From positions 1 to 64,000 of the forward strand of contig NZ_JABBPN010000018.1 in NCBI RefSeq assembly GCF_012933385.1: a DNA stretch of 64,000 nt, in the 5' to 3' direction. The notes beneath the pieces are model-generated. The model made no database searches. It had not been told where the DNA came from and saw only the letters and a program-made list of their open reading frames with translations. A program made the translations under genes and the position numbers. Source of the stretch: Paenibacillus lemnae (lineage in GTDB: Bacteria; Bacillota; Bacilli; Paenibacillales; Paenibacillaceae). Positions 47,509 to 52,170 of the stretch are shown piece after piece. Each line of letters begins with the position of its first letter. Position 1 is the first letter of the stretch.

Positions 47509-49647
47509 TTACGGCTGCCAGTTCACATTAACTGTAGCTGTTCCGGAGGCTGGAGCTGTGAAGGTACGGTTGCTGCCGCCTTCCCACGTGGTTGTGGAAC
47601 CGCTCTTTTTCAGGAATTTGTAGTTAATGGTTGCTCCGGCTGGAACACTGACATCATAGTACCAGGTTGGATACTGCGTGATAACCTGGTTGTACATTGG
47701 ACCGATGGCCTTGGCAGGATCCCAATTGCCCAGTTCGCTGACACTGCCAGCCAGGTATACATTTTGGCCGAGGGAGGTCGTGGCACCATTCACGATAAAG
47801 CGTACGGTGACCTGCTCTCCTGTAAGAACTTCAAAATTATCGTAAATATTGCTTTGCGTTCCGCCCGCATTGGCTACCTTGACATTGTACTTGCCTGGGG
47901 TAACGGCAGGGATATTTACTTTAATCTGGCTGTCTTCCCAAGCTGTAATGTTCGTTCCTGTAACTGCTGTCGTTCCGAAATATACAGTGCCTTTGGTCGT
48001 ACCGAAGCCGCGTCCATCGATTGTAACGGTTGTTCCGGCTTTCGCCATCATTGGGCCTACATGGCCAATGACTGGTGTAGTTTGAGCATTCGTTTTCTCC
48101 CATACTGCTACAGCGCCTGCACCAAGGGTAAAGGTGTTCACAGCACCGTTACTGCCAGCAGTGATCGAGCTGCCGCCCAGTGTGCCGCCGAGAACATCGG
48201 TGTAAGTTCCAGCAGGCAGGGACGTATTCAAACCGCTGATGGAAGCCGAAGTGCTCAGGTTGCGGTTAATGGCAACAACAGCTGTGCTTGATCCGAACTT
48301 ACGTTCATAGATGATGACATCATTATTGATCCAGCGCTCCTGTGTTGAACCATATGCGATGGCCGGATTGGATTTACGCAATGGAGCTAATTTTTTAACT
48401 ACGTTATAAGCAGTGGTCGATGTGGAGAACGAAGAGATGCGAGCACGGTTAGCAGGATCGTTTCCGCCAGCCATATACTGCTCGGTTCCATAATAGATGG
48501 CTGGTACGCCGCGGGAGGTCAGCGTAAAGGCAAGTGCTTGCTCCAGTTTGCGGTTGATGCCGGTGTGGAATCGTTCCATATCATGGTTATCGATGAAGGT
48601 AACCTGGTCATCAACTTGAGCGTAATCCACTGCGGTACCGTTCAGCATAGCATTCAGGCCGTACATATTATCTGTGCCGTCACGGAATACCTGGCGGGTC
48701 TTCTGAGCAAAGCGGAAATCCAGGAGGCTCATGCCGATTTCGTTTGCGAATTTATGATTTTCCGCGCTTACTTCATTTGCACCCAGAAACCATTCCCCGA
48801 AAGTGAAGACTGGCTTGTAGTTGTTAATCGTGGCCATGAAGCTCTTCTGCCAGCCGAACGGCATATGCTTAACAGCGTCCACCCGGATGCCGTCGATGCC
48901 GAGGTCGAGCCACATTTTCACGGCGTCTTTCAAATACTTGTCTACAGTGCTGTTGTTATGGTTCAGGTCCGCGAGATCATAGAGGTTTTTATAAATGCCA
49001 TTTTCCGTGGAGGAGAAGTCGGTGCCTCCGTTATGATGGAACAGGTTTTGCGTATCGTTCGTGTAGCCGCCGAGCAGGGTGCCGTTATTATACAGCTTGC
49101 CGTTCTCTGCAAAGGATGGGGCATCAGAGGAAGCAGGAGAGGTGTGGTTTGGTGCAAAATCAATGACAACTTTGATATTCTTGGCATGTGCAGCTGAAAT
49201 CAGATTCTGAAAATCGGTGAGGGTACCGTAGGCTGGATTGGTTTTCTTGAAATCCCTTGCCCAGTATCCGTGATACGCCGTGTTGTTCACGCCGGAATAG
49301 TTAATGACACTATAAATATTCTCTACAGGCTGAGAGATCCAGATGGCGGTAATGCCCATGCCGGTCAGGTACCCATCGTTGATTTTGTTAATAATCCCCT
49401 GCCAGTCGCCGCCACAGTACAGCCTAAGATTGGTGCAGGTGCCATCAAATGCCGATCCGGTCGGGTTGTTTGCGGCATTTCCATCGGAGAAGCGATCCGT
49501 GAAGATTTGGTAAATGACGTCTGTGCTGAAGTTCTGCTTGTTGGAGACGGAGGTATCCGGTGCTGCATGGGCTGGTGTGAACAAGCCGGCGGAAAGGGAG
49601 AGGGCGAGTGCTATTGCGGCGGAAATACGGGACCATTTTTTCATCAT
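47509..49647 (-). CDS. Cyclodextrin glucanotransferase (secreted GH13 CGTase)
   Basis: The 712-aa precursor has a Sec signal (1-28, cleavage after AHA). With the signal removed, the catalytic residues fall on the standard CGTase numbers: Asp229 (GIRVDAV), Glu257 (FGEWF) and Asp328 (IDNHD), and the central ring-forming Tyr195 (NLYDLAD). Arg47 is also present, as in beta-type enzymes. Domains A/B/C are followed by an IPT/TIG domain (about 525-605) and a C-terminal CBM20 starch-binding domain (about 612-712). ATG 49647 follows AAGGAGG. It converts starch to cyclodextrins outside the cell. Confidence 0.95.
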
Positions 49648-49763
49648 CGTAAAATGCCTCCTTAAATATGTGGTTTTCTTATGTAGGGCCAAGATGCGGA
49701 TCTCACGACTTGTTCTGTCCTGCAGGCTGGGGCTATCATCCTCCTTGCTATGAAGACCACAAA

Positions 49764-49797
49764 AACCCCGGCGTCTCAAGAAGAGATACCGGGGTTG
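49764..49797 (-). terminator. Terminator hairpin in the CGTase leader
   Basis: On the minus strand AACCCCGG-TATCTC / GAGACG-CCGGGGTT forms a stem followed by TTTTTG. It lies between the CGTase promoter (49865-49894) and start codon (49647), so it would stop transcription before the gene unless an alternative fold or factor prevents it. Confidence 0.7.
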
Positions 49798-49864
49798 TCC
49801 AATCACCTATAAGGCGCTGAAGCATGGCCCTCAAATTAATCTAGTTATTTCCAGTTGCAAGAAT

Positions 49865-49894
49865 ATTTTATGAGAAAGCGCCTTCATTTGTCAA
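49865..49894 (-). promoter_or_regulatory. CGTase promoter with cre site
   Basis: On the minus strand TTGACA (49889-49894), 18 nt and TAAAAT (49865-49870) form a sigma-A promoter. The spacer is TGAAGGCGCTTTCTCA, which fits the CcpA cre consensus closely, so glucose repression is likely. The leader is about 210 nt. Confidence 0.8.
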
Positions 49895-50286: not shown

Positions 50287-51231
50287 ATGCCAAGAACCAC
50301 AGGGATTCACCATATTACTTCTTTTGTTCAGGATCCGCAGGGTAATGTAGATTTTTACGCAGGTGTGCTGGGGCTGCGGCTTGTGAAGAAGACGATCAAT
50401 TTTGATGCGCCGGATGTGTATCATTTTTATTTTGGAAATGAAGCAGGAAGTCCGGGAACGATCATGACTTTCTTTCCGCATCAAGATGCACGGCGGGGAA
50501 GTGTCGGCGGCGGTCAGGTAGGCATTAGCGTGTTCGCGGTGCCGCCAGGCAGCCTGGATTTCTGGAAAGAGCGGCTGACCGGATTTGCGATCTCCTTCGA
50601 CGTAGTGCAGCGTTTTGGCGAGCAATATATCCGTTTTCATGATAACTCAGGACTGCTGCTGGAAATTACGGAACGTGAAGAAGGCACGGAGAGCAGGTGG
50701 TCGTTCGGGGGCGTGCCGGCGGATAAGGCGATTAAAGGCTTTGGCGGTGCGGTGCTGTTCAGTATGAAGCCGGACCGTACGGGTGAGATCTTGAACGGAC
50801 TGCTCGGGCTGGAGCGCGTGAACGAAGAAGGCGGCTGGGTCCGTTACCAGGCAAGCGGAGATATTGGCCAGATCATCGATATGAACACCAAGGATTTGGA
50901 ATGGGGCCGCGGTGGCGCGGGCACAGTCCATCATATTGCCTGGCGTGCAGCCGATAATGAGCAGCAGGAGCAGTTTCGTCAGGAGGCCGAAGCCGGCCGG
51001 CTTCAGCCAACACCGGTCGTGGACCGGCAGTACTTTAATGCCGTGTATTTCCGGGAACCAGGGGGCATATTGTTCGAGATTGCGACAGATCCGCCGGGCT
51101 TTGCCAATGATGAGCCGGCAGAACATCTGGGTGAGAAAATCATGCTCCCGTCATGGTTTGAACCGCATCGCGAGGAATTGGAACGGAATCTGACACCTGT
51201 TGAAGTACGGGTATTGAAAGGAGCGGAATGA
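50287..51231 (+). CDS. VOC-family ring-cleaving dioxygenase, MhqO type
   Basis: This 314-aa protein has two VOC domains: GIHHITSFVQDPQGNVDFY at the start and GTVHHIAWRAADNEQQEQF near residue 215, with the third metal ligand in YFREPGGILFEIATDP. It is a paralogue of the protein at 10125. RBS CAGGAGGAG precedes the ATG. The gene is followed after one base by the mhqD-like hydrolase, the same pairing as in Bacillus mhqNOP/mhqED regulons. Ring opening of hydroquinones or catechols is the presumed reaction. Confidence 0.88.
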   Translation: MPRTTGIHHITSFVQDPQGNVDFYAGVLGLRLVKKTINFDAPDVYHFYFGNEAGSPGTIMTFFPHQDARRGSVGGGQVGISVFAVPPGSLDFWKERLTGFAISFDVVQRFGEQYIRFHDNSGLLLEITEREEGTESRWSFGGVPADKAIKGFGGAVLFSMKPDRTGEILNGLLGLERVNEEGGWVRYQASGDIGQIIDMNTKDLEWGRGGAGTVHHIAWRAADNEQQEQFRQEAEAGRLQPTPVVDRQYFNAVYFREPGGILFEIATDPPGFANDEPAEHLGEKIMLPSWFEPHREELERNLTPVEVRVLKGAE

Positions 51232-51232
51232 G

Positions 51233-51850
51233 ATGGAGCATCGTCATGTGTATCGCAAAGGCCGTTCGACAGAGGCTCCAACGCTGCTGATGCTTCACGG
51301 TACCGGCGGGAATGAGGAGGACTTGCTGCCGCTGGCGGAAATGTTCTCTCCGGAGTCAGGGGTGCTGGGCGTGCGGGGGAATGTATTGGAAAATGGGATG
51401 CCGCGCTTTTTCCGGAGACTATCGGAAGGTGTCTTTGATGAGGAGGATCTGATCCAGCGTACAGAGGATCTGAAGGCTTTCCTGGATCAGGCGGCAGAGC
51501 AGTATGGGTTTGACCGCAGCCGCGTAGTGGCTGTAGGGTATTCCAACGGCGCTAACATCGCTGCGAGCCTGCTGTTTCACTACGCCGATGCTCTGCGTGG
51601 AGCGGTGCTGCATCATCCGATGGTGCCGCGGCGCGGTATAGAGCTTCCGGACTTGTCCGGTGTGCCGGTGTTTATCTCCGCAGGCAAGCGCGATCCGCTC
51701 TGCACGCCGGAGGAGAGCGAAGAGCTGGAGTCGCTGCTGACAGAGGCGGGTGCAGACGTTAAGCTGCACTGGGAAGCCGGCGGCCACCAGCTTAGCCGCG
51801 CTGAATTAGGCGCGGCGTCGGTGTGGGTTAAAAACCAGATACTAAAATAA
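51233..51850 (+). CDS. mhqD: Alpha/beta hydrolase of the MhqD / carboxylesterase family
   Basis: This 205-aa hydrolase has the phospholipase/carboxylesterase pattern: MLHGTGGNEEDLLPLA (about 19-34), nucleophile elbow GYSNGANIA (Ser near 104), Asp in SAGKRDPLCTP and His in WEAGGHQLSR. Length equals Bacillus MhqD. It starts one base after the dioxygenase stop and is followed by a strong terminator, so the two form one operon under the MhqR-like operator. It probably hydrolyses products of quinone ring cleavage. Confidence 0.87.
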   Translation: MEHRHVYRKGRSTEAPTLLMLHGTGGNEEDLLPLAEMFSPESGVLGVRGNVLENGMPRFFRRLSEGVFDEEDLIQRTEDLKAFLDQAAEQYGFDRSRVVAVGYSNGANIAASLLFHYADALRGAVLHHPMVPRRGIELPDLSGVPVFISAGKRDPLCTPEESEELESLLTEAGADVKLHWEAGGHQLSRAELGAASVWVKNQILK

Positions 51851-51858
51851 TGAACGAA

Positions 51859-51899
51859 AGCCCGTCCGGGGATGAGACATCTCGGACGGGCTCTTTTTT
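51859..51899 (+). terminator. Terminator after mhqD
   Basis: AGCCCGTCCG / CGGACGGGCT perfect arms with a 14-nt loop are followed by CTTTTTTG. Confidence 0.92.
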
Positions 51900-51910
51900 G
51901 CAGCAGCAAA

Positions 51911-52170
51911 TAGGGCCCAAACCCCGCTCACGCACTGAAATGTATGTGGTTTTCCACATACATAGGGCCCAAACCCCGCTCACGTGTGGAAATGTATGTG
52001 GTTTTCCACATAAATAGGGCCTAAACCCCGCTCGCGCCGTGGAATGTATGTGGTTTTCCACATACATAGGGCCCAAACCCCGCTCGTGCGTGGAAATGTA
52101 TGTGGTTTTCCACATACATAGGGCCCAAATCCCGCTCGCGCCGTGGAAATGTATGTGGTCTTATACATAC
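51911..52170. repeat. Five 52-bp tandem repeats
   Basis: Units start at 51911, 51963, 52015, 52067 and 52119, always 52 bp. Each has TAGGGCCCAAACCCCGCTC, a variable 8-9 nt core, and a hairpin with 10-bp arms ATGTATGTGG / CCACATACAT and a TTTT loop. The last unit's hairpin is damaged. 52 is not a multiple of three and no frame is conserved, so it is not coding. It is not a CRISPR array, because there are no unique spacers. Confidence 0.92.

Follow-up and report, generated by a model that had tools for sequence, protein, structure and literature searches.

The window analysed in this work, a stretch of 64,000 nucleotides from Paenibacillus lemnae (contig NZ_JABBPN010000018.1), carries on its minus strand a CGTase gene that is separated from its promoter by a leader of about 210 nt. 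The neighbouring gene (50287-51231) is divergent and lies on the plus strand. Elsewhere in the window, minus-strand reading frames at 51828-52168 contain recurring translated units, for example WKTTYIS and ENHIHF, an indication of a short array of direct repeats. The features of the leader and its gene, in the direction of transcription, are the following:

49889-49894, minus strand: -35 hexamer TTGACA (promoter scan)
49873-49886, minus strand: cre-like site TGAAGGCGCTTTCT, between -35 and -10 (sequence, by the cre consensus)
49865-49870, minus strand: -10 hexamer TAAAAT (promoter scan)
49822-49837, minus strand: conserved 5' motif, here AATTTGAGGGCCATGC, with GGG at 49830-49828 and UG at 49824-49823
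49798-49821, minus strand: hairpin P1 (fold and covariation)
49789-49797, minus strand: CAACCCCGG, proposed 3' half of an antiterminator and 5' arm of the terminator
49764-49796, minus strand: intrinsic terminator stem-loop AACCCCGG...CCGGGGTT (fold; the distal stem covaries)
49761-49765, minus strand: terminator U tract (sequence)
49740-49746, minus strand: Shine-Dalgarno-like AAGGAGG, 3' of the terminator and far from the gene start (sequence)
47509-49647, minus strand: CGTase gene, 712 aa, ATG at 49647, with alpha-amylase, TIG and CBM20 domains

Promoter and terminator of the CGTase leader

The promoter hexamers are separated by an 18-nt spacer and match the consensus at 11 of 12 positions, and the position of the -10 hexamer places the probable transcription start near 49858. 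A second promoter-like site on the minus strand (49938-49909, 10 of 12 matches) would likewise place the hairpin inside the leader if transcription started from it. The promoter scan reported 10 promoter-like sites in 6 kb compared with 7.4 (sd 2.6) in shuffled sequences; since this total is not above chance, a listing alone is no proof and the case is carried by conservation. The -35 hexamer is kept in the 18 aligned same-genus leaders (with the variant TTGACT in L019), and so is the -10 hexamer. The core CGCTTNC of the cre-like site is present at the same place in 17 of the 19 orthologous promoters.

In the terminator stem, AACCCCGG (49796-49789) pairs with CCGGGGTT (49771-49764), followed by five T. 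The original prediction had placed this hairpin, at 49764-49797, in a leader of about 210 nt, some 60-90 nt past the start and about 120 nt before the gene. The hairpin has a folding energy of -22.4 kcal/mol and a z-score of -4.79, with none of 200 shuffles as good, and relative to the start deduced above it spans approximately 61 to 94 nt, lying about 117 nt upstream of the ATG, so the predicted geometry holds. For the fold of the whole leader the z-score is -2.41, with 3 of 200 shuffles as good. A simple terminator scan did not include the hairpin among its listed sites in the window; the internal loop of the stem is in our opinion the reason.

The Shine-Dalgarno-like block, which lies about 95 nt upstream of the CGTase gene, recurs as a GGAGGTGA-like block at the same place in the aligned same-genus CGTase leaders. 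By analogy with STAB-SD it may act as an mRNA stabiliser.

Orthologous leaders in the same genus

CGTase was searched in 100 genomes of the same genus. Close orthologues occur in 19 of them, 17 unbroken (76-100% identical) and two, in G061 and G062, in two pieces each (79-89% identical); 13 of the 100 genomes have CGTase relatives of 66-67% identity. The same leader stands upstream of CGTase in all 19 close orthologues and in none of the 13 distant ones. A strict DNA pattern that combines the motif and the terminator matches once per genome in the 19 orthologue-bearing genomes and has no match in the other 81, and promoter, motif and terminator are common to all 18 leaders that were aligned. 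The element was absent from the 12 distant CGTase leaders inspected (L020-L031). These distant leaders have a GAAACCGGTTTC-like palindrome just past the -10 hexamer, which from its sequence resembles a LacI-type operator.

Distribution of the element in Bacilli

A covariance model built from the 19 same-genus elements (R1) gave matches in 195 of 394 genomes of the family with E no higher than 0.05. Many of these are weak, but outside the genus full-length matches reach 6e-13, and a single genome can have as many as nine. In one scan, matches from 39.0 bits down, mostly on the antisense strand of the palindromic terminator, were left unused. Forty loci from this search yielded 75 elements that were kept (alignment A3) and served to build a second model, R2. 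With this model, at E up to 0.001, 97 of the order's 296 genomes gave a match, spread over 13 of 48 genera; in the class 34 of 348 genomes did so, and in the phylum, at 1e-4, only 3 of 299, all three of them Bacilli. Seven of 16 loci outside the order, from five families, carry the element upstream of CGTase; the other nine have the appearance of ordinary terminators and were rejected.

A pattern scan of named genomes returned at least 117 stretches, at least 80 of them as loci. The matches listed come from Paenibacillus, Cohnella, Gorillibacterium, Oceanobacillus, Virgibacillus, Shouchella, Alkalihalobacillus, Amphibacillus, Gracilibacillus, Fictibacillus and Pullulanibacillus, among others. 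Three pattern matches in distant phyla (at most 19.2 bits) were left out, 37 other matches score 39-67 bits, and the remaining ones score at most 35.6 bits and are mostly antisense, L221, L179 and L180 being perhaps weak elements. From the 47 rows of the set A4, five were dropped from the promoter, fold and motif counts, namely four antisense rows and L154, which scores 39 bits, has a departing motif and showed no gene. Genomes G297 and G299 each contain seven elements that score below an E of 1e-5. The original observation is confirmed and turns out wider than first described.

Conserved parts, covariation and competing folds

The element consists, in order, of a promoter, the motif AGGGC-N-[A/C]-UG, the covarying hairpin P1, ACAACCCCG and the terminator. 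A promoter-like site (score of at least 9) is found within 100 nt upstream of 95 of 117 elements, compared with 11% of mononucleotide shuffles, and the distance from the end of the -10 hexamer to AGGG is about 30 nt (median among the sites listed). Together with the -35 and -10 hexamers kept in the aligned leaders, this argues for a start upstream of the hairpin. A start downstream of 49764, which would place the hairpin outside the leader, finds no support in the window, where the scan lists no promoter-like site in the interval from the terminator to the gene.

At least five T occur in the eight bases after the stem in 138 of 159 elements, and fewer than five in the other 21. AGGG is present in all 75 elements of A3; among non-redundant elements, AGGG is found in 151 of 152 and CAACCCC in 148 of 152 (148 of 153 with the dropped row L154 counted), an invariance that is partly built in, since many elements were detected by models or patterns in which the motif is favoured or obligatory. 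Six elements have a departing motif. Two of them (L114 and L139) lie upstream of open genes; for the other four (L071, L116, L164 and L107) a reading-frame search found no gene nearby, as if the element were decaying together with its gene.

When P1 and the terminator are imposed as the structure on A3, 94.0% of cells are paired and 246 cells carry a double change, compared with 66.1 (sd 12.9) in shuffles (none of 500 as high) and a maximum of 54 when the structure is slid along the alignment; nine of the ten P1 pairs vary on both sides. The 36 elements from outside the order (alignment A6) behave in the same way, with 92.1% of cells paired and 100 double changes compared with 35.9 (sd 5.4) in shuffles, none of 500 as high, and a maximum of 24 when slid. 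By these comparisons P1 and the distal terminator stem covary strongly, in alignments that were made by the covariance model and lean towards its own structure. RNAalifold on a free MAFFT alignment of the 19 same-genus elements recovered the terminator stem alone, with zero covariation, because MAFFT aligned P1 poorly, and the covariation of P1 rests on the model-made alignments. Since the sources of A6 came mostly from the motif-requiring pattern, only the covariation of P1 and the stem is independent of the motif in that set.

The terminator base, CCCC:GGGG, is nearly invariant while the distal part covaries, a contrast that points to a further function of the Cs. The proposed function is pairing of CAACCCCGG with the 5' motif, its CA with UG and three of its four Cs with GGG. 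When the RNA is cut at CCCCG, the GGG:CCC pairing is part of the minimum-energy fold in 136 of 161 elements, with UG:CA also paired in the six folds displayed and in that of the window; in the longer RNA the terminator is formed in 153 of 161. The window fold cut at CCCCG (-15.2 kcal/mol, z-score -0.12, 88 of 200 shuffles as good) is not unusually stable. The antiterminator pairs are possible in all 75 elements of A3, and their sole variation is one G-U; because GGG:CCC and UG:CA are invariant they gain no support from covariation, and this pairing is consistent with the data but unproven. The terminator and the antiterminator require the same Cs.

The window and some orthologues also fold with a long-range pairing of AGGGC to bases 3' of the terminator. 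This pairing was considered and rejected, since the best complementarity over 156 elements (10.26) does not exceed that of shuffled sequence (10.28).

Genes downstream of the element

Target genes were assigned by best BLAST hit to annotated proteins for 91 elements in 80 loci, among the matches listed. The targets of these 91 elements are CGTase (38), neopullulanase or cyclomaltodextrinase (14), a PF00756 esterase (13), an AAC(3)-like PF02522 protein (9), MATE (2), a beta-PGM-family HAD protein (2) and a sugar-binding protein (1); the 12 elements lacking an assigned gene comprise seven cut by the locus end, three in distant phyla and two others. Further targets, from loci retrieved with the covariance models, are pullulanases, a CBM21 protein, DrrA-like ABC ATPases, MFS and RpiA. 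A sugar-binding-protein gene lies beside CGTase or neopullulanase in 21 of 31 loci outside the order, and in five loci (L218, L234, L238, L239 and L248) CGTase and neopullulanase each have an element of their own.

The distance from terminator to gene is often short. All nine AAC(3)-like genes have their predicted start 28-47 nt past the terminator stem, and in 11 of 14 neopullulanase genes the distance is 48 nt or less. Such spacing leaves little room for a second promoter, and transcription of these genes is therefore hardly possible except through the terminator.

Several individual arrangements were also observed. In L081, L082, L083, L101, L112 and L146, CGTase and an esterase of about 460 aa of the PF00756 type are divergent, with one element each. 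The genome of the window has a second, weaker element (E 1e-5) upstream of an AAC(3)-like gene at G000:C11:224152-224229 (L136:3153-3230), an arrangement that recurs in other genomes (9 of the 91 elements among the matches listed). In L137 (3059-5470) and L138 the element precedes an 804-aa secreted-looking protein for which neither Pfam (E up to 1e-5) nor NCBIfam (E up to 1e-10) gives a match. In Amphibacillus jilinensis (L221:3881-3946), the Rfam Bacillaceae-1 RNA lies between the divergent elements of a sugar-binding-protein gene and CGTase.

Proposed mechanism and alternative explanations

A stop signal and a competing hairpin, both conserved in leaders before starch and cyclodextrin genes of many Bacillus-like bacteria, look like an uncatalogued switch. 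We consider it probable, at roughly 75%, that the window leader is one of a family of transcription attenuators, so far uncatalogued, that occurs in class Bacilli and acts mainly on genes for starch and cyclodextrin. The original prediction had read attenuation from the position of the hairpin alone; that reading has gained in strength, as motif, P1 and terminator are kept together between promoter and gene start in several families of Bacilli, and invariant bases allow a fold to be drawn that would exclude the terminator. The terminator lies between promoter and gene on the same strand, as in an attenuator, and, as in riboswitches, a covarying structured RNA recurs in the leaders of related genes, with the non-starch targets as exceptions.

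The mechanism we propose is as follows. RNA polymerase would start near 49858 and transcribe in turn AGGGC-N-[A/C]-UG, P1 and ACAACCCC. As the Cs emerge, an antiterminator hairpin could form in which GGG pairs with CCC and UG with CA, followed by P1, these pairings being separated from one another by small conserved internal loops. If the antiterminator is not stabilised, CCGGGG would capture the CCCC arm and the intrinsic terminator would form; if a signal stabilises it, transcription would run on into the CGTase gene. Termination would be efficient and the default, the switch presumably of the ON type, and the signal would reflect starch-derived sugars, sensed either by the RNA directly or by a protein. 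Through the cre-like site, glucose would in addition repress initiation.

Three other explanations of the leader were weighed. The hairpin and the Shine-Dalgarno-like block could together stabilise the 5' end of the mRNA in the manner of STAB-SD, with constitutive readthrough, a role that would suit a hairpin of this strength close to the 5' end and, in the CGTase leaders of the genus, a GGAGGTGA-like block remote from the start codon. We regard it as improbable, since it leaves unexplained the U tract in 138 of 159 elements, the motif 5' of P1 and the short leaders of the AAC(3)-like and neopullulanase genes. Ribosome-mediated attenuation through a leader peptide would begin at the AUG of the motif, which is present in 134 of 159 elements and follows the purine-rich AGGG; the other 25, however, have CUG in its place, AGGG and AUG are only two bases apart, and P1 varies in length. 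A search of the frame from this AUG in the 159 elements found no conserved short reading frame: 33 of the 134 AUG frames end upstream of the terminator, 78 reach a stop codon within or beyond it, and 23 run to the end of the stretch without one. No length is shared among these frames, and we think this explanation very unlikely. Divergent intergenic regions can contain terminators, but that the hairpin ends some other transcript and CGTase has its own promoter downstream is scarcely credible, given that the neighbouring gene points away on the plus strand, zero promoter-like sites are listed from terminator to gene, and promoter and motif are conserved upstream of the terminator.

Partner and signal

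If the leader is an attenuator, the antiterminator hairpin may be bound by a dedicated RNA-binding antiterminator protein, acting as on RAT but of a class other than BglG/LicT. RAT hairpins have a short lower stem that overlaps the terminator, internal loops and an upper stem, and the present hairpin, with its variable upper stem, resembles them; a compact hairpin with invariant loops would also suit protein binding. Known partners were sought in 31 carrier genomes, each at least 90% complete. CAT_RBD (PF03123) has no match in 12 of them, G297 and G299 included, ANTAR has none in 15, and LoaP scores above the cut-off in only seven, so BglG/LicT, ANTAR and LoaP, each absent from many carriers, were rejected as the common partner. 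Among 31 loci, 12 gene clusters are common to at least two loci, and none looks RNA-binding by eye. We hold a protein partner of another class to be a real possibility, somewhat short of an even chance.

Since the known antiterminator proteins do not fit and a leader peptide is not conserved, what remains besides another protein class is direct sensing. The RNA itself might sense a starch product, such as a malto-oligosaccharide, a cyclodextrin or a close sugar derivative, and open the starch and cyclodextrin genes by antitermination; we put this forward tentatively and think it rather unlikely. Judging by the starch targets, the signal would derive from starch. Other targets (AAC(3)-like, MATE, DrrA-like ABC, MFS and RpiA) do not look like starch genes, and the signal may therefore not be a starch sugar; from the AAC(3)-like and exporter targets one may speculate about an amino-sugar-like ligand instead, for example an acarbose-type inhibitor.

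Both CGTase and cyclomaltodextrinase are used industrially, and we know of no account of their induction at the RNA level in the literature covered. An attenuator before their genes would give a direct handle on induction and possibly a tool for controlling expression. The element also offers a test case for sugar sensing by RNA, and its conserved core, about 40-50 nt long, is of a size that suits direct binding and structural studies. If RNA sensing of a starch product is true, it would constitute a riboswitch class for an unmodified sugar; according to one review (PMC9971707), there are no riboswitch sensors for unmodified sugars.

Comparison with known systems

Rfam 15 has no family at or above the gathering score at the element, in agreement with the original reading that found no known riboswitch motif; on the opposite strand, c-di-GMP-I-UAU reaches a chance-level 14.5 bits (cut-off 65.9, E 4.6). 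No description of the element was found in the portion of the open-licence literature covered, and the terms starch, amylase, pullulanase and maltodextrin are absent from the main texts of structured-RNA surveys of 26 and 50 bacterial genomes and of an orphan-riboswitch paper.

Four known systems are similar in part. The RAT sites of BglG, SacY and LicT likewise have a hairpin that overlaps the 5' arm of the terminator, internal loops and a place in the leaders of sugar genes; the element differs in sequence and size, and in that this protein family lacks a match in 12 of the 31 carriers. ANTAR-controlled leaders (eut, nas) share the mutual exclusion of antiterminator and terminator. ANTAR sites consist of two hairpins with hexanucleotide loops, unlike the single hairpin with a variable loop found here, and ANTAR is without a match in 15 of the 31 carriers. 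Small transcriptional riboswitches, among them those for fluoride and preQ1, resemble the element in being compact, conserved RNAs that immediately precede a terminator or lie inside it, and so does the terminator-embedded HMP-PP class (PMC6478431); in contrast to such riboswitches, the element has no Rfam match. The STAB-SD of cry genes is matched by the Shine-Dalgarno-like block far upstream of the start in CGTase leaders, whereas STAB-SD does not include the terminator and the AGGGC/ACAACCCC motif. We judge the element to be a family of attenuators that is new in itself and of a general kind already known.
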